A stretch of 35,675 nucleotides of DNA from SAR86 cluster bacterium (GTDB lineage: Bacteria > Pseudomonadota > Gammaproteobacteria > Magnimaribacterales > AG-339-G14): contig JAOIHS010000008.1 of NCBI GenBank assembly GCA_028135785.1, forward strand, positions 1 to 35,675, in the 5' to 3' direction. The position numbers and the translations under genes were made by a program. Shown here piece by piece: positions 9,718 through 16,959 of the stretch. How positions within the stretch are numbered: the stretch's first letter is position 1; each line of letters opens with the position of its first letter. The notes below the pieces were generated by a model that was not told the origin of the DNA, did not search any database, and saw only the letters and a program-made list of their open reading frames with translations.

Positions 9718-9778
9718 TGATTCTTCATCTAAAATAGTAGGACATATAAAAAAGGAGATAGATAATTTAAAATCTTAA
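9698..9778 (+). CDS. Possible 26-residue peptide overlapping the dsbB end
   Basis: A GTG at 9698 sits 5 bases after a good ribosome site (AGGAG) and opens a 26-codon frame beginning MKSRGIDDSSSKIVG and ending NLKS. It overlaps the last 20 bases of dsbB in another frame, which would allow coupled translation. The composition is polar and no family is recognised. It may be a gene remnant or chance. Confidence 0.22.
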   Translation: MKSRGIDDSSSKIVGHIKKEIDNLKS

Positions 9779-9847
9779 TATGAAAGACTTCCTCTTTTGG
9801 TAGGAATTATTGATTGTCTTTTTTTCTTTTAAATATTAGAAAACTTA

Positions 9848-9876
9848 TTGACAAATTAGGCCTGTTTAAATACTTT
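9848..9876 (+). promoter_or_regulatory. Candidate sigma70 promoter before the acidic-protein operon
   Basis: A perfect -35 TTGACA at 9848 is followed after 17 bases by TACTTT as a -10. It lies 22 bases before the first possible start codon of the next gene, with no other gene in between, so it probably drives the run from 9910 to 11048. Confidence 0.5.
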
Positions 9877-9909
9877 TAAGGTTAATTTAAGCAAAAGATG
9901 CGGGGAAAT

Positions 9910-10344
9910 ATGAATATAGATAAAAAAAATACATACAGAATTGTTTTCACATATGATGAAGAGCCTTCATTAAATATGGTTTATGCAGAAGTTGGTGATG
10001 GTGATTATGAGATTTTTGGTGCTTTTTCTGGAATATGTGGTGGTTTGGGAATGTTTCATCAAAATGCTGATGGTGAAATCACCGTCTCAGACGACCCTTT
10101 TGAATTCGACACTAAGTACGAAGATGAAGTTGAAGAAATCTGTAAAAAAATCGAGTCTTTGAGAGCAGAATTTGAAGATACAGATAGCGATGGCAATCTT
10201 AAAGGTTTATCAGATACGGGGAAAAAGTTTATGCTAGGCTCCCATGCAAATGATGATGGTTACGAATGGGCATATTCCGAAGATGCATCTGAAGATTTTA
10301 TCTATGATGTACAAGACGAGTGGAATCTTAAATTCAACATGTAA
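9910..10344 (+). CDS. Acidic protein of unknown function with an EF-hand-like loop (paralogue 1)
   Basis: An unrecognised acidic cytoplasmic protein of 144 residues, with no signal peptide or membrane segment. The ATG at 9910 is preferred over 9898 because a GGGGA ribosome site sits just before it. The N-terminal half holds YRIVFTYDEEPSLNMVY and FGAFSG. The C-terminal half holds DTDSDGNLKGLS, which matches the DxDxDG calcium loop of EF hands apart from its last position, then YSEDASEDFIYDVQDEWNL. The next reading frame repeats this layout and is clearly homologous, so the two arose by tandem duplication. Calcium binding is inference from the loop. A DNA-mimic role is another guess prompted only by the charge. 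Confidence 0.7.
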   Translation: MNIDKKNTYRIVFTYDEEPSLNMVYAEVGDGDYEIFGAFSGICGGLGMFHQNADGEITVSDDPFEFDTKYEDEVEEICKKIESLRAEFEDTDSDGNLKGLSDTGKKFMLGSHANDDGYEWAYSEDASEDFIYDVQDEWNLKFNM

Positions 10345-10785
10345 TTTAAGAGAATTTACATAGATTTTGAAGAGCTAAATAAAATTCTAATTGTAAATAG
10401 TGAAAACAGAATAGTTGTAAACATTGTCTATGCTCCTGTTGAAGGAGGCTATATTGGCGCCTTTTCAGGAGACTCAGGGGGAATCTTTGATTATCGAGTT
10501 TTTTATATTGATGAAGATGAGGTGGCAAATATAGATGATGATTGTGATGCTTTAGATGTTCCTGATCCTGAGGTGACAGCTGAGACTTTTTCACAACTTG
10601 AAGGTGAAAGATTTAAGTTTGAAGATGAAGACGATGATGGCGCACTTTCCAAAGAAGGTCAGGCATTCATAGATGATATAGAGGAAGATGACGGACTAAA
10701 AACTAAATATTCTTCCTCCGCTTCTAAAGATATTATTTATTTTTTGCAAGATGAATGGTCCATTAATTTTTTTCTTGACGATTAA
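10345..10785 (+). pseudogene. Tandem paralogue 2 of the acidic EF-hand-like protein; no standard start codon before mid-gene
   Basis: The frame stays open, and in the same phase as paralogue 1, from directly after its TAA stop to 10785. The whole stretch is homologous: NIVYAPVEGGYIGAFSG matches NMVYAEVGDGDYEIFGAFSG, DEDDDGALSKEG matches the EF-hand-like loop, and ASKDIIYFLQDEW matches the C-terminal box. No ATG, GTG or TTG occurs in frame before a GTG at 10522, which lies inside the domain. An AAGAGA at 10348 is followed 6 bases later by ATA (10360), as if an ATG had mutated, and an ATT lies at 10354. It may be a decayed start, a non-canonical start, readthrough of the TAA, or a shortened protein from 10522. 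Confidence 0.6.
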
Positions 10786-10787
10786 AT

Positions 10788-11048
10788 ATGAAAACTTTTG
10801 AAGTAACGTGGCATCTAGATTTTTGGGAAAACGGTGTCGAAAAAATTACAACCGAGAATATAGAAGCAGAAAATCTGGATAATCTCTTTGACATTTTAGA
10901 TGAGGGTATAGAAGAGGGAGAGTTTTGTCCTGAAGATGAATTTCCGGAATACGAAAAAAGTTTCAATTTAGAATACGTGATAATTAAAGATGAAGGCGAA
11001 CTAGTCTATAAAGACGAAGATTTTGATATTAGTAAGCTAGAAGAATAG
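10788..11048 (+). CDS. Small acidic protein of unknown function
   Basis: An 86-residue, strongly acidic protein (MKTFEVTWHLDFWENGVEK at the start, EDFDISKLEE at the end) with no signal peptide or membrane segment. It begins 3 bases after the stop of the acidic paralogue pair and ends in a strong terminator, so it is the last gene of that run. It lacks the DxDxDG loop of its neighbours. The alternation EVTWHLDFWENG and LEYVIIKDEGELVYKDED suggests a small beta-rich fold. I do not recognise the family. Confidence 0.65.
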   Translation: MKTFEVTWHLDFWENGVEKITTENIEAENLDNLFDILDEGIEEGEFCPEDEFPEYEKSFNLEYVIIKDEGELVYKDEDFDISKLEE

Positions 11049-11080
11049 AAATTTTATCTATTCTTTCTTTTTTTTCTTTC
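11041..11080 (+). terminator. Intrinsic terminator after the acidic-protein operon
   Basis: A perfect 9-bp stem, AAGAATAGA (11041-11049) with TCTATTCTT (11057-11065), has a 7-base loop and is followed by a T-rich run. It overlaps the stop codon of the upstream gene and the end of the converging minus-strand gene. Confidence 0.75.
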
Positions 11081-11237
11081 TACTACTAGGACCAATAATA
11101 ATGGTTGGCGGTCCTTGATAGATCGGATGATCTTCTGGAAGAATTTTAATATTATATTTTTTAGAAAGAGCTTCTAGAACCTCTTGAGTTATCTCTCCGT
11201 TCTTATTTATTTCTATCTCTTTATCTTTTTTTTTCAT
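11058..11237 (-). CDS. 59-residue basic small protein, unknown
   Basis: A short frame beginning MKKKDKEIEINKNGEITQ and ending SSRKKKKKE. The middle (ITQEVLEALSKKYNIKILPEDHPIYQGPPTIIIGP) looks like a compact structured segment rather than random translation. It starts 4 bases after the stop of the upstream membrane-protein gene, so the two form an operon. No family is recognised. Both ends are Lys-rich, the opposite charge to the acidic proteins that converge on it. Confidence 0.5.
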   Translation of the reverse strand: MKKKDKEIEINKNGEITQEVLEALSKKYNIKILPEDHPIYQGPPTIIIGPSSRKKKKKE

Positions 11238-11241
11238 GTTA

Positions 11242-11502
11242 TCAAGAGGTTAAAGTTTGTGAACTAGGAAAACTTTCGGCATTTTTAAATGCTGTTCGCA
11301 CTATATATTTTCTAATCACCGAAATAAGTGTCAACACTAAAGTCTGTATTGCTGAAATAAGGAAAGCATTACTCATGCCAGTGCTCATCATTAACGCTAA
11401 AGTCCCATATGAAGTAGTCCAAGCTATTGGCATCGCTATTGCAGTATCGGTCATTGACTCGCGGAGTGTTTTTTTATCTATTTTTTTCATTATTTTATTC
11501 AT
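11242..11502 (-). CDS. Small two-span inner-membrane protein, unknown
   Basis: An 86-residue protein. Residues about 20-42 (AIAMPIAWTTSYGTLALMMS) and 45-65 (NAFLISAIQTLVLTLISVI) are hydrophobic spans, followed by RKYIVRTAF, a layout also seen in small phage and plasmid membrane proteins. A second in-frame ATG at 11490 is an equally good start. The gene is divergent from the WYL regulator, and its candidate -10 (TACTAT, 11525 down to 11520) is placed by the shared palindrome in that gap, which leaves a very short leader. It is co-transcribed with the 59-residue gene behind it. Function unknown. Confidence 0.6.
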   Translation of the reverse strand: MNKIMKKIDKKTLRESMTDTAIAMPIAWTTSYGTLALMMSTGMSNAFLISAIQTLVLTLISVIRKYIVRTAFKNAESFPSSQTLTS

Positions 11503-11519
11503 AAATTTAAAGCTTGTGG

Positions 11520-11568
11520 ATAGTACTTTAAGCTTGCGACATATTTTGTCGGATGAGAATGTTATAAT
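11520..11568. promoter_or_regulatory. Palindromic bidirectional promoter with RecA-NDp-like layout (site 1)
   Basis: The palindrome CGACA-TATTT-TGTCG (11537-11551) lies between divergent genes. On the plus strand TTGTCGGAT (11546-11554) is followed after 8 bases by TATAAT (11563-11568). On the minus strand ATGTCGCAA (11542-11534) is followed after 8 bases by TACTAT (11525-11520). Neither -10 has a normal -35 at 17 bases. The layout TTGTCRGTG-N8-TAN3T is that of the mycobacterial RecA-NDp promoter bound by the WYL activator PafBC. The plus-strand gene here is itself a WYL regulator, which suggests autoregulation. Confidence 0.7.
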
Positions 11569-11595
11569 TGCTCATATTGAATTCAGGAGCAAAAT

Positions 11596-12594
11596 ATGGG
11601 TAATCCAACCTTAAGACAAATCACAATGCTTGAGCTAATACCTCGAGCGCCACAAAAAACATATGCGAAAGAACTCAAAGATAAATTGAGTAATCGAGGT
11701 TATGAAATAGACGAACGAACCATTCAAAGAGATTTAGTGGCCTTGGAGAGAACCCTGCCTTTAAGGTGTGACGATCGAGACAAACCTTATGGTTGGTCTT
11801 GGGCAGAAAAAGGTATAGGTATCCAAGCACCAGCCATGGATCCCATTGAAGCACTTACCTTATCTTTGGCTGAGCAATACTTAGAGCCGTTGATGCCAAC
11901 TGCAAATTATAAAAGAGTGCGTATCTTTTTTGATCGAGCCAACGCTGTCTTGAAAGAAAGTAGTCCAAAATTAATCAATCGTTGGCGGGATCGCGTTCGA
12001 GTCTTGCCCGAGATGATCCGTTTTAAAAAACCGAAACTAATTGAAGGCATCGAAGATCAGCTTTATCGAGCTGCTTTTGAGGGTTTGCAAATTAAGGCTT
12101 TGTATCGCAAACGCGGCGAAACTCAATCGGCTCTGAGGCATATCCATCCGCTTGGCCTGGTTATGAAGGGCAGCATCAATTACTTAATTTGTATGATGGA
12201 TGAAGATGCCGAACACCCTAGATATATGCCTATTCATCGATTTGAACAGGTAACGATACTCGATGAAAAAGTTAAAGAGCCCAAAAATTTTAATTTGGAC
12301 GAGTTTGTCCATACCAATAATTTGAGTTTTGAGTTCAGCAAAGATCTTTATACATTCAAGGCTTTATTTGATTACACCGCTGCCGCGCATTTAGTGGAAA
12401 CGCCGCTAAACAGTACTCAAGCGGTTAAACGTCAAACCGATGGTCGATTATTAGTGACTGCCCGCATGACTGACACCTTGCAGTTCGAGCAATGGCTTAA
12501 AAGTTTTGGATCAGATGTTGAAGTGTTAGCACCTAAAAAACTAAGAAATAAATTTAAACAATTAGCCAAAGAGCTAAGCAATCAATACAAATAA
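11596..12594 (+). CDS. WYL-domain transcriptional regulator (HTH-WYL-WCX)
   Basis: A 332-residue regulator of the YafY/PafBC type. An N-terminal winged helix-turn-helix (residues about 5-60, recognition helix near DERTIQRDLVALE) is followed by a helical linker, a WYL domain (about 155-225, with HPLGLVMKGSINYLICMMD and MPIHRFEQV) and a C-terminal WCX region (about 245-325, with MTDTLQFEQWLKSFGSDVEVLAP). WYL domains sense nucleic acid or nucleotide ligands, and members include the DNA-damage activators PafBC and DriD and the defence-island repressors BrxR and CapW. The gene leads a run with a membrane protein and RmuC. Its promoter carries the palindrome shared with the gap at 16135, the most likely target. 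Whether it activates or represses is not decided by sequence. Confidence 0.88.
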   Translation: MGNPTLRQITMLELIPRAPQKTYAKELKDKLSNRGYEIDERTIQRDLVALERTLPLRCDDRDKPYGWSWAEKGIGIQAPAMDPIEALTLSLAEQYLEPLMPTANYKRVRIFFDRANAVLKESSPKLINRWRDRVRVLPEMIRFKKPKLIEGIEDQLYRAAFEGLQIKALYRKRGETQSALRHIHPLGLVMKGSINYLICMMDEDAEHPRYMPIHRFEQVTILDEKVKEPKNFNLDEFVHTNNLSFEFSKDLYTFKALFDYTAAAHLVETPLNSTQAVKRQTDGRLLVTARMTDTLQFEQWLKSFGSDVEVLAPKKLRNKFKQLAKELSNQYK

Positions 12595-12596
12595 AT

Positions 12597-12938
12597 ATGA
12601 AGAAAGAAGATCAAAAAGAATGGGAAGTAGAAGAAGCAGAAAATACATTTCTATGGATTAAAAATTATATTTTTACCATTGAAGCACTCATGTTGATGGC
12701 TTTGGGTTTTAACTTGAAATACTTCATTAGCTTTTCAAGCTTTGATTTGGTGATTGCCTCAATTTTGGTGATCTCTGCCTTATCTATCTTTCTAACTTAT
12801 TTTTTATATGTGGCAATCGTTTTTAGAGGACAGATTTTGGAGACTGATTTACAAATATCATTTGATTACGCCTACAAACCAATACTTTATATTAGCTCCA
12901 TAGTATTCACCTTTATTCTAATGGCTGTTAATCTTTAG
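12597..12938 (+). CDS. Three-span inner-membrane protein, unknown
   Basis: A 113-residue protein with a charged N-terminus (MKKEDQKEWEVEEAENTF) and three hydrophobic segments at about residues 22-44, 50-76 and 92-112. The ATG is 2 bases after the stop of the WYL gene and its own stop is 2 bases before the RmuC start, so it is part of a tight operon. I do not recognise the family. The context suggests a membrane partner for RmuC, which has a single N-terminal span. Confidence 0.65.
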   Translation: MKKEDQKEWEVEEAENTFLWIKNYIFTIEALMLMALGFNLKYFISFSSFDLVIASILVISALSIFLTYFLYVAIVFRGQILETDLQISFDYAYKPILYISSIVFTFILMAVNL

Positions 12939-12940
12939 AA

Positions 12941-13852
12941 ATGGAAATTATTTCTTTTGCTCTATCTCTTACTACTCTTATCTTAGTAGTTTTAGTAATT
13001 TACTTAACTTTTAAAAAAGGAAAAAATTCTGATCTTGATGGGGTAAAAACTGAATTAACCGAAAAATTCTCAACAAGTCTTGAAAGGCTAGCTGGCATCT
13101 CAAAAGATATTGATTCTCTTAAAGAAACAACGTCTTCAATGAGTTTACCTATTACCAATTTAAATAAATATTTAGGCGGAAATGTTCAAACTGGTCGATT
13201 GGGTGAGTGGAATCTTGAATCTATTGTCAAAGACATCATTCCGAATAATAAATATTTCTTTCAGCACGTGATAAATCCAAAGACCCAAAATCAAGTTGAC
13301 TGCGCTATAGAAACAACCAACAAAATTCTTATTCCAATTGATTCTAAATTTTATGCTGCTCAATATGCTGCTTATCAGGAAGCAACTAAAAAAACAGAAA
13401 GAGATAAAATCTTAAATGAACTTAAAAGATCTATTGAAAATGATGCTGACGCTATCAAAGAAAAGTACATAGTTAAAAATATTACATCAAATATAGGAGT
13501 TCTTTACACTCCATCAGAGGGTCTCGTTTCCATGGTTAATTTAATAGACGGACTTAGAGAATCTCTGCTAAGAGAAAAAAATATTTTGATTCTTGGTCCT
13601 AATTCATTAGCAGGCTTCCTTGATTCAATCAGAATGGGTCATGACGCTGTTGAGCTAAATGAAAAAGCTGAGCTGATTGGAAAAATTATTAATGAAGTAA
13701 GTGAAGAATTTTCAAATTTAGATATGAAAACAGGTGAGTTACAAAAAGCTATCGGTGGTGTCGCTAACAAAATTGACGAATATCAAACTAGAATAAATGT
13801 TATGAGCCGAACCTTAGAAAAAGCTGGAAAGGATTTAAAAGATGGAGATTAA
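12941..13852 (+). CDS. rmuC: RmuC-family protein
   Basis: A 303-residue protein with an N-terminal membrane span (about residues 4-24), a coiled-coil region (about 30-70, EKFSTSLERLAGISKDIDSLKETTS) and an RmuC domain. The domain is marked by GRLGEWNLESIVKDIIP, NQVDCAIETTNKILIPIDSKFYAAQY, TPSEGLVSMV and LGPNSLAGFLDSIRMG. RmuC limits inversions at short inverted repeats in E. coli, its fold is related to the PD-(D/E)XK nucleases, and RmuC-like proteins also occur in antiphage islands. At 303 residues it is shorter than the usual 350-480 and looks divergent. Its stop overlaps the start of the next frame (TAATG), showing translational coupling. Confidence 0.85.
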   Translation: MEIISFALSLTTLILVVLVIYLTFKKGKNSDLDGVKTELTEKFSTSLERLAGISKDIDSLKETTSSMSLPITNLNKYLGGNVQTGRLGEWNLESIVKDIIPNNKYFFQHVINPKTQNQVDCAIETTNKILIPIDSKFYAAQYAAYQEATKKTERDKILNELKRSIENDADAIKEKYIVKNITSNIGVLYTPSEGLVSMVNLIDGLRESLLREKNILILGPNSLAGFLDSIRMGHDAVELNEKAELIGKIINEVSEEFSNLDMKTGELQKAIGGVANKIDEYQTRINVMSRTLEKAGKDLKDGD

Positions 13853-14052
13853 TGCAAAACATTTTTCTTTTGGAAGAAATGAAACTTAAAGAATTAGTAT
13901 CGATAAATGATCAATATACTCAATCGATTAATATCGAACGAGATGAATCTTCTTTAGACCGAATTAATGCTTATGTCCCTACAGCTATTACAAAAAAGGC
14001 TCTTGATTCATTCATAAATGCCTGCTCTGATGAAAAAAAACAAAAAGCTTGA
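13852..14052 (+). pseudogene. N-terminal fragment of an unidentified gene, truncated at a deletion junction
   Basis: A 66-residue frame translationally coupled to rmuC (TAATG). It begins MQNIFLLEEMKLKELVS and contains QSINIERDESSLDRINAYVPTAITKKAL, which reads like the ordered start of a larger protein rather than a complete one. It then runs antisense into the end of the truncated glycosylase gene and stops. I cannot name the parent family. Large ATPases of defence islands are a guess from context only. Confidence 0.45.
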
Positions 14053-14327
14053 ATATTTTGTTGATGATGAACTCCTGGCAATCTTTCTTTACCCCAAATT
14101 CCATCGAAATACTCATTCTCTTCAGCATAATTTTCTTTATCTAAAAGTTTATTGAGTATTTGATCTTCTTCTGGATAATTATCATCAATATGCCCGCCTG
14201 GATTTACACCTAAAAAATAATAATCGCCTGTAGACAAGGTTTCATAACCTGAATAAATTATATTTCCTGGTTTTCTTTGGAGACCTGTATTTTTTAGAAG
14301 TTCAGCGATTTTATCTATATGACTCAT
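13971..14327 (-). pseudogene. Truncated uracil-DNA glycosylase superfamily protein
   Basis: A 118-residue minus-strand frame. Residues 1 to about 93 resemble the N-terminal half of the uracil-DNA glycosylase superfamily, with the active-site loop YYFLGVNPGG near residues 36-45 and the later FDGIWGKERLPGVHHQQNIQ. The expected C-terminal half, with its conserved His/Ser loop, is missing. The last 25 or so residues (AFCFFSSEQAF onward) are simply the antisense of the fragment converging from the left, so the homology ends near 14045. It starts 12 bases after the Cas4-like nuclease gene and was part of the same operon. It is unlikely to be an active enzyme. Confidence 0.55.
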
Positions 14328-14339
14328 CTATATTGATTC

Positions 14340-15149
14340 TTACAGGTGAGATAGTGAATCCAGAAAAGTGAAATATTCACAAGGTTTATCGCCTTTGGGA
14401 CCAAAGCCACTCTGCGAATGATCTGGGCATTTGTCTTGATGAAGGCATTTTTTAATTTCTTCAATTTTACCTTCTACCCAACTTGAATCGCCTTCATAAG
14501 CAACTAATTGAACATCAAAGTACATTTTTGCCTTGTCTTCATCTTTTAATAACATCCCAGGCTCAAAGTGTTGATCGCCGTTAACATATACAAAATAACC
14601 TGTATTACTGACTTGAAAACCATTTTTTCTTAATATCCATTGATACATGTCCATTTGTCTTTTATAGCCTTCTTTGTATGCACCAAATAAAGTAATTGGC
14701 TCTAAGGCAGTTAAGTCTTCATTTCTTCTGCCCGCTGTACTCTTATAATCCACAATAAATAATTCATCTGTTTTAGGATCATGCCAAACATCATCCAATC
14801 CGCCGCCAATGATGAAATTTGCTGGTTTATAGTCAGTTCGAAAGCCTAATTGGAGAGATTTTGTCCACGTCTCAAAATCTTCATGTTGAAAAGGAACCAA
14901 ATGTCCTAGGCCATGACGAATCATAAATGGATGGGGTTTTTGATTATCTCGATAAACGTCGAAATCTTTTTTTAATAACGTATCTGTCGCTGTGTTTAAT
15001 AAAAAACCTGGCATTCCAGGAAACTTTATTCCTTTAACGCGATCTAGCCAAAAACAGGCTGGACATTTTACGTAGGCTTCAATACGCGACCGACTTAACT
15101 CATAAGGTTCAGGGTTCTCTGGATTAAATACTCCTCTATGCCTTGCCAT
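14340..15149 (-). CDS. PD-(D/E)XK nuclease, Cas4/RecB-like, with probable Fe-S cysteines
   Basis: A 269-residue nuclease. The core motif is GGGLDDVWHD (metal-binding Asp) followed by LFIVDYKSTA (D-x-K), then the QMDMYQWILRKNGF helix, the layout of RecB/Cas4/AddB nucleases. Cysteines at residues 30 and 33 (VKCPACFW) and three near the end (KKCLHQDKC and KPCEYF) could hold the iron-sulfur cluster typical of Cas4 and AddB. No cas1, cas2 or repeats are nearby, so it is not a CRISPR adaptation gene. The truncated glycosylase follows 12 bases later. Its leader has an inverted repeat (15167-15198) but not the palindrome shared by its neighbours. Confidence 0.82.
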   Translation of the reverse strand: MARHRGVFNPENPEPYELSRSRIEAYVKCPACFWLDRVKGIKFPGMPGFLLNTATDTLLKKDFDVYRDNQKPHPFMIRHGLGHLVPFQHEDFETWTKSLQLGFRTDYKPANFIIGGGLDDVWHDPKTDELFIVDYKSTAGRRNEDLTALEPITLFGAYKEGYKRQMDMYQWILRKNGFQVSNTGYFVYVNGDQHFEPGMLLKDEDKAKMYFDVQLVAYEGDSSWVEGKIEEIKKCLHQDKCPDHSQSGFGPKGDKPCEYFTFLDSLSHL

Positions 15150-15357
15150 AGAATTTATCTTTACATAAAACTAAATAAAATGCTCCACGTTTAGTTTTAA
15201 TGGATATGTGTGATAGATTTGTTAAAGAATGGAAGTCTACTGGTGTAGAGGCTAGTTCTTATTTCGTATTTAGGTTTATGTTGATTTTGGAATTCATTTT
15301 TAAACCACAAAGGCAGTATGGTGTAACCGCTATACCAATCTTTACGATACCTAAATA
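15150..15357. other. Intergenic region with an inverted repeat
   Basis: These 208 bases lie between two minus-strand genes. The main structure is a 9-bp inverted repeat, AAAACTAAA (15167-15175) and TTTAGTTTT (15190-15198), with a 14-base spacer. It lies 18 bases before the nuclease start and has no T-run behind it, so it is more likely an operator or mRNA hairpin than a terminator. A plus-strand frame opening at 15200 runs into the next gene antisense and is not supported. Confidence 0.35.
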
Positions 15358-16026
15358 TCATTTAGCCGCTACGATATTCTCTTCATCGCAAACTTTGGGA
15401 AGCTGCTCTAAGGCTTCAGTAAAACCATCGCTTTTAAAAGTAGTCATATCAAACCCACCCATTAAAAATTGATAAGGACTTTCCTCGGGGAAAAAAATAG
15501 AAAACTTCTCTACCAGAGAATCGTCTTTGTTTATTAAAGGCAAACCTTCGGGAAAGGTAATCAGAAATAAGTCATATAGTAGTGGCTCTTCAAGATCGTA
15601 TTTATCGTGCGCTTTTTTGTAAAACTCTTTGCCCACCAAATCTTCCAGTTTTAATACCGAATGAATTTTTGCTTCATAAAAATATGCTGGATTGGTATCC
15701 GTCTGCACTACTAATTTTGTTTCATTGAGTAAATCTTCACGCTCGATAATGCCTTCGTGTTTTCGAAAGGCCGGCGTAATGAGTTGAAATAAAACCACTG
15801 GCGCATTGCAAGCCGGGAGCTCCCAACTCAAGATAACTTGATTCCAATAGGAATGCTGGTCACTAATTTTAATATAACCTATCTCTTTGTCTTCGGTGAC
15901 AGTGAATTTCCAGCTGGTATCTATTTCATTGTTTACGTAACTTGAATGATAAATTTTGTGATCTTGGTCTTGAGCAGCCAAAATAAAGCCGCTCAAGAAA
16001 AGTACAACCCCTAATCTAATCTTCAT
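15358..16026 (-). CDS. Secreted protein of unknown function
   Basis: A 222-residue exported protein when started at 16026, where MKIRLGVVLFLSGFILAAQDQ gives a clear signal peptide. A longer frame from 16056 adds ten residues in front. The mature part has about 200 residues of mixed sequence, including WKFTVTEDKEIGYIKI, SWELPACNAPVVLFQLITPAF and FFPEESPYQFLMGGFD, with two Cys (PACNAP and KVCDE) that could form a disulfide. I do not recognise the family. Its upstream gap holds the second shared palindrome, whose leftward arm is followed by CATAAT (16140 down to 16135) at the same 8-base spacing, so it may belong to the same regulon. Confidence 0.6.
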   Translation of the reverse strand: MKIRLGVVLFLSGFILAAQDQDHKIYHSSYVNNEIDTSWKFTVTEDKEIGYIKISDQHSYWNQVILSWELPACNAPVVLFQLITPAFRKHEGIIEREDLLNETKLVVQTDTNPAYFYEAKIHSVLKLEDLVGKEFYKKAHDKYDLEEPLLYDLFLITFPEGLPLINKDDSLVEKFSIFFPEESPYQFLMGGFDMTTFKSDGFTEALEQLPKVCDEENIVAAK

Positions 16027-16134
16027 CAAATAACTTTGACCAAAGCAAGGTTCCATTTATTGAAATTTCTATCTGCATTTCTTCATTTTCTTTTTTCATA
16101 TCTTTTTAGACCAAAAAACAATATTGACGTTCGC

Positions 16135-16183
16135 ATTATGCTGATTCTTTCCGACAGGGATTGTCGGATTGAGGTTATAAAAT
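16135..16183. promoter_or_regulatory. Palindromic bidirectional promoter with RecA-NDp-like layout (site 2)
   Basis: The palindrome CCGACA-GGGAT-TGTCGG (16151-16167) matches site 1. Rightward, TTGTCGGAT (16161-16169) is followed after 8 bases by TAAAAT (16178-16183); an overlapping TATAAA begins two bases earlier. Leftward, CTGTCGGAA (16157-16149) is followed after 8 bases by CATAAT (16140-16135). It lies between the divergent genes starting at 16026 and 16208. The base-by-base agreement with site 1 continues into TTGTCGGAT and a GTTATAA. Confidence 0.7.
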
Positions 16184-16207
16184 ATAGGCTCAAATATCGG
16201 AGACCAA

Positions 16208-16516
16208 ATGCACAATAAACCAAAGAAATTAACTGAAGATCTGTTCAATGAAATGGAAAAAGTCTATGAACGCTACTCACATAGAGAAGATTTTGATCCA
16301 GGATGCTTCGCCTATAGCTTAGCTAGATACACCATGTATATGCTCTTTGAAACTGCTGCTTCTCCTCTAGCAGCTACTGGCATGTTAGCTCGTGCTATGC
16401 AAAATCATATGCTTGACTTGCGTTTTGAAGAGAGAAAAAATGAAAGTAATTTTGTCGGCGAACTTATCGATGAAAACGGCATTTCTATTCCAGTTGATAA
16501 ATCACAAAAACATTAA
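16208..16516 (+). CDS. Conserved-looking 102-residue protein of unknown function
   Basis: A 102-residue, mostly helical soluble protein. It contains DLFNEMEKVYERYSHREDF, then LARYTMYMLFETAASPLAATGMLARAMQNHM, a long amphipathic or semi-hydrophobic stretch, and a polar tail ending DKSQKH. A ribosome site GGAG lies 7 bases before the ATG. It is the first gene to the right of palindrome site 2 and is followed 5 bases later by another unknown gene. No family is recognised. If the palindrome is the WYL operator, these two genes are candidate effectors of that response. Confidence 0.62.
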   Translation: MHNKPKKLTEDLFNEMEKVYERYSHREDFDPGCFAYSLARYTMYMLFETAASPLAATGMLARAMQNHMLDLRFEERKNESNFVGELIDENGISIPVDKSQKH

Positions 16517-16521
16517 TCGAA

Positions 16522-16920
16522 GTGAAGAAACTTAAAGCTAAAAACTTTATTCCCGTGCCCACCAATGAAGCTTACGAAGTCTCGCTCCAACTTATTGCTG
16601 AAACTAGAGCTGAAAATCATTTTCTTTTTAGAAGAGTATGGTTTCTTGAGCAAAAAATTAAAGAAAGTGTAGAGAATGAAATTAATGTTATGTCTTATGA
16701 AAAAATAATAAAGATTTTAATGAAAAAATGTTACGAAAATTATGAATTATTTCATCAGCTTGAAACTGAAATAACTTTAATTTCCGGTTACCGAAAAAAA
16801 GAAATTAAAAGATTTTTTAAATTGTCACAAGAAATGATTCTGAAGGATAAAAGATCCAATGATTTTTTTCAGATTCCTAACCAACCTTACCCATTTCCAA
16901 ATAAATTAAATTATAAATAA
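16522..16920 (+). CDS. Unknown 132-residue protein, GTG start
   Basis: A 132-residue basic protein rich in Lys, Glu and aromatic residues, beginning at a GTG 5 bases after the previous stop. The middle (HFLFRRVWFLEQKIKESVENEI and EKIIKILMKKCYENYELFHQLETEI) is predicted to be helical or coiled-coil. It ends in KLNYK just before a strong terminator. No family is recognised. Operon position suggests a role linked to the 102-residue protein before it. Confidence 0.58.
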   Translation: MKKLKAKNFIPVPTNEAYEVSLQLIAETRAENHFLFRRVWFLEQKIKESVENEINVMSYEKIIKILMKKCYENYELFHQLETEITLISGYRKKEIKRFFKLSQEMILKDKRSNDFFQIPNQPYPFPNKLNYK

Positions 16921-16949
16921 AAAAAGGGAGCAATAAGCTCCCTTTTTTT
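16921..16949. terminator. Bidirectional intrinsic terminator
   Basis: GGGAGC (16926-16931), loop AATAA and GCTCCC (16937-16942) are flanked by five As on the left and seven Ts on the right, so it can stop transcripts from both sides. It serves the 16522 gene and the converging secreted-paralogue operon. Confidence 0.9.
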
Positions 16950-16959
16950 GTCTTATCAA

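Follow-up and report, generated by a model that had tools for sequence, protein, structure and literature searches.

A putative DriD-like operator beside a single WYL regulator gene at a SAR86 defense hotspot

Among the described WYL proteins, the activators DriD, PafBC, and SiwR belong to DNA-damage responses, and the island regulators BrxR and CapW repress (here and below, comparisons draw on the accessible portions of the cited papers). The DriD consensus, ATACGAC-N7-GTCGTAT, is placed so that it overlaps a poor -35 and keeps a constant spacing to the -10 (PMC12340889). The driD promoter itself works in both directions: DriD activates the divergent operon but not its own gene (PMC12340889). 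The published promoter sequence includes CGACAGAAACGGTCG. Scored by sequence, the published DriD promoters give an ambiguous -10 offset, with ties, and the distance was taken from the paper's statement instead. SiwR of M. smegmatis is a homodimeric WYL activator that binds ssDNA and uses a palindrome upstream of the -10 (PMC10693628). PafBC is a heterodimer that reads one -26 element and, in the accessible account, does not bind the promoter without polymerase (PMC11804915); it sits between sigma and DNA at the would-be -35 (PMC11804915, PMC5656591), and the mycobacterial motif is tTGTCRgtg-8nt-TAnnnT (PMC5656591). BrxR and CapW are shown repressors at defense islands or operons; the CapW sites cover the -10, and BrxR of E. 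fergusonii binds between promoter and gene (PMC9122601, PMC9122589, PMC9122588).

The locus described here lies in a window of 35,675 nucleotides, the whole stretch of DNA that was analyzed, from an incomplete 947-kb genome of a SAR86 cluster bacterium. DriD already provides this operator core, protein fold, and promoter layout. In the open-access literature searched we found no paper on SAR86 WYL regulators, neither the defense-hotspot setting nor the symmetric two-sided promoters and, in the accessible text, no WYL activator of a defense island.

Palindromic operators and their promoters

Read directly from the window, GCGACATATTTTGTCGG at 11536-11552 (operator 1) separates a divergent pair, the WYL gene on the plus strand and a DUF7220 gene on the minus strand. 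The features of this region are as follows.

11058-11237, minus strand: 59-aa protein with a by-eye likeness (LPEDHPIY stretch) to cluster C8
11242-11502, minus strand: DUF7220 protein, encoded first behind the leftward promoter
11520-11525, minus strand: leftward -10, TACTAT, 16 bases from the T of its own arm's TGTCG
11536-11552: putative WYL operator 1, GCGACA-TATTT-TGTCGG, core CGAC-N7-GTCG, centered at about -31 of both promoters
11563-11568, plus strand: rightward -10, TATAAT, 16 bases from the T of TGTCG
11596-12594, plus strand: WYL regulator, 332 aa, with a wHTH-like N-terminus, helical linker, WYL, and WCX

The initial annotation had pointed to a palindrome between divergent genes, with TATAAT and TACTAT as -10 hexamers and no -35, and the window sequence confirms this. 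RNA starts are predicted at about 11575 rightward and about 11513 leftward. The right arm, TGTCGG, departs from the usual TGTCGC/T (a G holds that place in 4 of 46 arms). The rightward promoter has a canonical extended -10, TGT-TATAAT, as seen in 2 of 35 arms, so the missing -35 alone is no proof of activator dependence there. Genes of cluster C8 head the second operator in the sister genus.

A second palindrome in the window, CCGACAGGGATTGTCGG at 16151-16167, was overlooked in that annotation. It also lies between divergent genes, and its right-hand layout is that of operator 1.

15358-16056, minus strand: cluster C17 member of 232 aa with no Pfam match, left of operator 2
16151-16167: putative WYL operator 2, CCGACA-GGGAT-TGTCGG
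16178-16183, plus strand: rightward -10 of operator 2, TAAAAT, 16 bases from the arm
16208-16516, plus strand: protein of 102 aa with no Pfam match, right of operator 2
16522-16920, plus strand: cluster C18 member of 132 aa with no Pfam match, kept near operator 2 within the genus

The leftward counterpart at operator 2, CATAAT (16140-16135), is likewise 16 bases out and fails TANNNT.

The palindrome, not the arm-plus-hexamer motif first proposed, is the informative part. Scanning the window's genome for that motif, TGTCGGAT-N8-TAN3T with up to 2 mismatches, returned 106+122 matches against 121+137 for the reversed control, which is no enrichment; the two exact matches in that genome are both in the window. 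A looser palindrome pattern, GCGACA-N5-TGTCGC with one mismatch, had matches in 20 of 40 family genomes and also matched the control, and we therefore chose the stricter 10-letter core CGACA-N5-TGTCG.

This core occurs at 25 sites in the 40 family genomes. A relative of the WYL protein is present in 11 of the 40, and these hold 23 of the sites, against 2 in the 29 genomes without the gene; the reversed control pattern has 2 sites in the gene-bearing genomes and 12 in the others. Of the 23, 21 are at the WYL locus; two of these 21 (G020) come from a short contig where the right-flank genes are those of the locus. The operator lies immediately 5' of the WYL gene in the four gene-bearing genomes of the window's genus, where the palindrome and its -10s form the best-conserved intergenic DNA, and is separated from the gene by one or two small genes in the seven gene-bearing genomes of the sister genus. 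These counts uphold the earlier picture of a conserved, two-sided site tied to the adjacent single WYL gene. From its distribution, the palindrome is in all likelihood functional, and the WYL protein encoded at 11596 very probably binds it as its operator. Viral contigs gave 98 pattern matches, none related to the WYL protein. In a named-genome collection, scanned with an 11-sequence alignment (a 24-sequence one was too diverse), relatives of the protein occur at ten loci, nine in SAR86 cluster bacterium and one in Gammaproteobacteria bacterium.

The distance from operator to -10 is shared widely among these promoters. For the 21 perfect operators at the locus, TANNNT begins 15 or 16 bases out, counted from the T of TGTCG, in 34 of 42 arms, which are related and not independent (11 kin genomes, 12 promoter groups); it is found on at least one side of all 21 operators and on both sides of 13. 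With two one-mismatch operators added (L055:4211 and L057:10231, both upstream of C8 genes, one of four arms positive) the count is 35 of 46, and four one-mismatch sites that were excluded (L052:2274, L054:18383, L055:3612, L057:9319) have 0 of 8 arms positive. Averaged over the 12 orthologous promoter groups, the TANNNT fraction is 0.60 at 16 bases and 0.10 at 15, and no remaining offset from 8 to 29 exceeds 0.12; two of the 12 groups have no -10 at 15-16. Four off-locus sites, L082-L085, are omitted from the 12-group and 46-arm counts, and when they are included the -10 is at 16 in 26 of 50 arms and at 15 in 9 of 50.

The palindrome occupies the -35 position, and the match to TTGACA at 16-18 base spacing averages 1.7 of 6 letters there, against 2.5 of 6 at random places in the window. 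None of the 35 arms at operators of this kind has a good TTGACA at that spacing: the best match is 3 of 6, and matches of at least 4 of 6, found at 14% of random places, are absent. The SAR86 family has the DriD-type arrangement, in which the operator overlies a poor -35 and keeps a set distance to the -10. In the sister genus (L055-L061) the start codon of C9 genes falls 6-7 bases past the -10 in seven of seven arms, a placement that fits leaderless RNA and supports the assigned -10. The WYL gene of the window's genus starts 20-27 bases past the -10.

The WYL protein and its relatives

Pfam domains WYL and WCX were recognized in the 11596 protein. A predicted model (mean pLDDT 81.6, pTM only 0.52) has helices and strands ordered as in wHTH-linker-WYL-WCX; at that low pTM, the chain shows the DriD-type architecture of wHTH, three-helix linker, WYL, and WCX in a single polypeptide. 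By sequence, the best PDB match is Caulobacter DriD (1.6e-12), confined to residues 157-326 (WYL-WCX), and neither sequence nor profile comparison found an alignable match to DriD for the N-terminal half or the HTH. A profile built from 24 relatives listed PafC and PafBC after DriD, and arginine repressors for the HTH; BrxR and CapW were absent at E <= 0.01, which excludes nothing. Foldseek gave DriD with ssDNA and operator as the best match (3e-15, with 17-22% identity in DriD alignments), followed by PafBC (5e-13) and then CapW/BrxR (about 2e-7 to 4e-5). A second aligner tied DriD with BrxR, CapW, and PafBC on Z, with Z 13.6 for DriD (8tp8; rmsd 15.5, 315 aligned), 13.3 for BrxR (rmsd 11.9, 149 aligned), and 12.0 for PafBC (9fnd; rmsd 16.1, 307 aligned); such near-equal values show that Z separates WYL families poorly. 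Residues R181, Y196, R209, and R215 align with R, Y, R, and R of DriD.

Like DriD (PMC12340889, PMC4211646), the SAR86 system combines a wHTH, a helical bundle, WYL, and WCX with a palindromic operator of core CGAC-N7-GTCG, placed over a poor -35 in a bidirectional promoter beside the regulator's own gene. Unlike DriD, its operators also face the WYL operon itself and come with clear TATAAT-like -10s, and the putative targets lie in a defense/repair island, whereas the DriD targets in the accessible accounts are didA, bapE, recJ, and dnaG. The initial annotation, which did not consider DriD, had suggested an undescribed WYL promoter class and invoked PafBC. In core sequence, -35 position, and bidirectionality the site resembles that of DriD; an undescribed class is not supported, and the PafBC label gives way to a DriD-like one. 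SiwR offers a further parallel: the SAR86 palindrome is likewise 5' of the -10 and next to its own WYL gene, and a homodimer, ssDNA binding, and activation would be additional points in common. The SiwR site differs in being a 19-bp imperfect palindrome that spans the -10 to -35 region, with DinB-like targets (PMC10693628).

The operator extends beyond the family. Elsewhere in the order, CG(A/T)C-N7-G(A/T)CG is found close upstream in 14 of 19 WYL loci, several of them near copies of one another (9 of 9, 5 of 8, and 0 of 2 loci in three other families), and the claim of the initial annotation, which had turned on conservation upstream of WYL orthologues, survives this comparison. Operator and recognition helix vary together: Met in the helix (R-M-I-Q-R-D-L) goes with CGTC at five of five loci and Thr with CGAC at nine of nine (R-T at eight, K-T at L075). 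Helix Thr or Met and operator CGAC or CGTC thus form a natural operator-specificity series. In some order-level relatives (e.g., L065, L066, L070) the operator contains TATAAT, and in others it lies beside the start codon; because of these placements, both activator and repressor modes may occur in the WYL family of the 11596 protein.

At class level (369 genomes; 31 matches outside the family, of which 29 gave loci), exact CGAC-N7-GTCG lies within 400 bases upstream at 8 of 29 loci against 0.3 expected, with gene starts approximated by the match start, which is unsafe at contig-cut loci. The -10 spacing is not evident at this level; a 5-of-6 -10 at 15-16 was found in two arms only.

Among the order-level loci, the Met-for-Thr WYL relatives with CGTC-N7-GACG operators are L062, L063, and L065-L067, and at L065-L067 TATAAT lies within the palindrome. 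At L074, L075, L078, and L079 the divergent neighbor of the WYL gene reads by eye as an ATPase (GAPGIGKSS), a kind of divergent partner common to two families of the order.

The rmuC locus and its cargo

In family genomes lacking the WYL gene, polA, dsbB, and rmuC are adjacent in all six examined. Where the WYL gene is present, it and its operator intervene between dsbB and the position that rmuC otherwise occupies, and the next recognized gene behind the WYL gene is rmuC in 9 of 11 genomes, at distances from overlapping to about 500 bases. The genes behind the WYL gene in the window are these.

12597-12938, plus strand: 113-aa protein without a Pfam match, 2 bp past the WYL stop
12941-13852, plus strand: RmuC family protein, behind the WYL gene here and beside dsbB in the WYL-lacking genomes examined
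14340-15149, minus strand: PD-(D/E)XK nuclease family protein, island cargo, with a weak Cas4-like PADLOC match

Set against the reference order of WYL-lacking relatives, polA-dsbB-rmuC-...-selO, the window has two insertions flanking rmuC, at 9718-12940 and 13853-16959, each with one WYL operator, and rmuC has shifted from behind dsbB to behind the WYL gene. The left insertion also holds, at 9898-10785, two tandem acidic proteins that appear by eye to be paralogues, the first of 148 aa and the second a copy without a clear ATG near 10346. G028 and G039 have 7-10 kb of extra DNA between dsbB and the WYL gene. G022 (L054) is WYL-bearing, and no RmuC match was found in it; the one RmuC match in G037 (L059) is weak (6e-4) and falls in a protein of 381 aa encoded behind the WYL gene.

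Past rmuC lies variable cargo, usually with a second operator as well where the fetched stretch extends that far. The cargo families listed here are single-gene matches of selected proteins, not complete systems.

L052: Pif1 and UvrD/GajB-like helicases
L053: DrmA, DrmB, and a cytosine methyltransferase
L054: MzaB, an EcoRII-like nuclease, and a methyltransferase
L056: MkoA-like protein
L057: 2OG-Fe(II) oxygenase
L059: PsyrT
L060: MzaB, MzaC, MzaE, and a methyltransferase
L061: MkoA-like helicase and, past the second operator, methyltransferases and a restriction enzyme

The gene types of this hotspot are restriction, DISARM-, Mza-, PsyrT-, and Mokosh-like, and a defense-island location of the BrxR/CapW type is found here. 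A co-directional run that ends in the MkoA-like protein follows the second operator in L056 and L061, so that in these two loci the operator would directly control a defense-type operon.

RmuC domains have been co-opted for defense in Shield, often near WYL regulators (PMC10270631), and the present locus resembles Shield in having an RmuC-domain protein near a WYL regulator in a defense-island setting. It differs in that rmuC is found beside dsbB in the WYL-lacking genomes examined and has apparently been taken into the WYL operon here. A review of Vibrio cholerae islands, as far as its accessible text goes, places a WYL gene upstream of ddmDE, with a role under study.

Modes of regulation

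We give a probability of roughly 0.6 to the explanation as a whole, in which a homodimeric WYL activator on the palindrome, triggered by ssDNA, governs a local defense/repair regulon. The WYL homodimer would bind CGAC-N7-GTCG centered at about -31, substitute for the absent -35 contact, and help polymerase use the -10 on each side; a single operator would thereby serve both divergent promoters. If DriD and other WYL proteins are a guide, ssDNA arising from DNA damage or phage attack and bound in the WYL groove would be the trigger, and on that analogy the DNA-damage control of the regulon raised in the initial annotation is plausible. The regulon would be mainly local: the WYL gene, rmuC, and small conserved genes, joined in some genomes by the Mokosh-like nuclease-helicase operon, with a presumed benefit in defense. 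Activation is favored over repression mainly because of the fixed -10 distance and the worse-than-random -35. A more specific form of this reading, held tentatively and at a little under even odds, has a DriD-type ssDNA-triggered WYL activator, not a repressor, run the defense hotspot: the dimer would license two weak divergent promoters, and the regulator would have captured rmuC by inserting between dsbB and rmuC. Damage or phage replication would then jointly induce rmuC, the small genes, and sometimes the Mokosh-like operon.

A CapW/BrxR-like autorepressor would place its dimer over the -35 region and keep polymerase out in both directions; ssDNA or another phage-made nucleic acid would release the dimer and so turn on the WYL gene itself and the island. 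Such a regulator would suit the defense-hotspot setting, and like BrxR and CapW the SAR86 protein is a WYL regulator at a defense island with a palindrome upstream of its own gene; the BrxR spacer is also 5 bases, and BrxR too has a second site within its island. In the accessible text, CapW and BrxR bind promoter palindromes, CapW represses in both directions, and the Acinetobacter BrxR site covers a predicted -35. The TATAAT-containing operators of L065, L066, and L070 and the operators beside start codons elsewhere have a repressor's layout, and the extended -10 of the window's right promoter also counts against activation. We nonetheless consider an autorepressor unlikely: it requires neither a -35 worse than random nor a spacing to the -10 that stays at 15-16 bases in promoter groups that are unrelated. 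Moreover, sequence and Foldseek favor DriD and PafBC over BrxR/CapW, with which the Foldseek match is weaker (about 2e-7 to 4e-5), and the operators of the SAR86 family are centered near -31, not over the -10 or downstream of the promoter.

The RecA-NDp layout seen in the initial annotation stands as far as spacing is concerned: the 16 bases from TGTCG to the -10 equal the distance in tTGTCRgtg-8-TAnnnT. A PafBC-like sigma adaptation built on a doubled RecA-NDp, each arm serving as its own -26 element for one HTH while the other HTH touches sigma, would also accord with the shared WYL domains and with PafBC as the second-best Foldseek family. The remainder of the layout does not carry over. 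PafBC is a heterodimer of two different WYL subunits on a one-sided, non-palindromic element, whereas the SAR86 sites are palindromic and each of the 11 gene-bearing genomes has one match to the 11596 protein (several are incomplete, so that a very distant second WYL protein could be missed). The arms are mostly TGTCGC/T, not TGTCRGTG, the gtg end being absent, and what is conserved is the whole palindrome with its N5, in the geometry of DriD; we regard this alternative as very improbable. That the palindrome is a chance occurrence, or the site of another regulator unconnected to the WYL protein, is scarcely credible given its presence-absence coupling with the WYL gene, its recurrence upstream of the order's WYL genes in step with the recognition helix, and the 8 of 29 class-level loci against 0.3 expected.

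If the ssDNA-triggered activator is real, an uncultured marine lineage couples DNA damage to a defense hotspot through a DriD-like activator, and the promoter grammar of CGACA-N5-TGTCG, 15-16 bases, and a -10 allows targets to be predicted in single-cell genomes.

A wider regulon defined by the palindrome was rejected, as 21 of the 25 perfect sites in the 40 genomes sit at the WYL locus. The four perfect sites off the locus are L083 and L085, in gene-bearing genomes, and L082 and L084, in genomes without the gene; a -10 at 15-16 was found in one of their eight arms. L085 (G028, contig C2) is an operator-like palindrome on a contig that begins with dsbB- and RmuC-like fragments, and for this reason it may represent a second strain or a second copy of the WYL locus in the G028 assembly.
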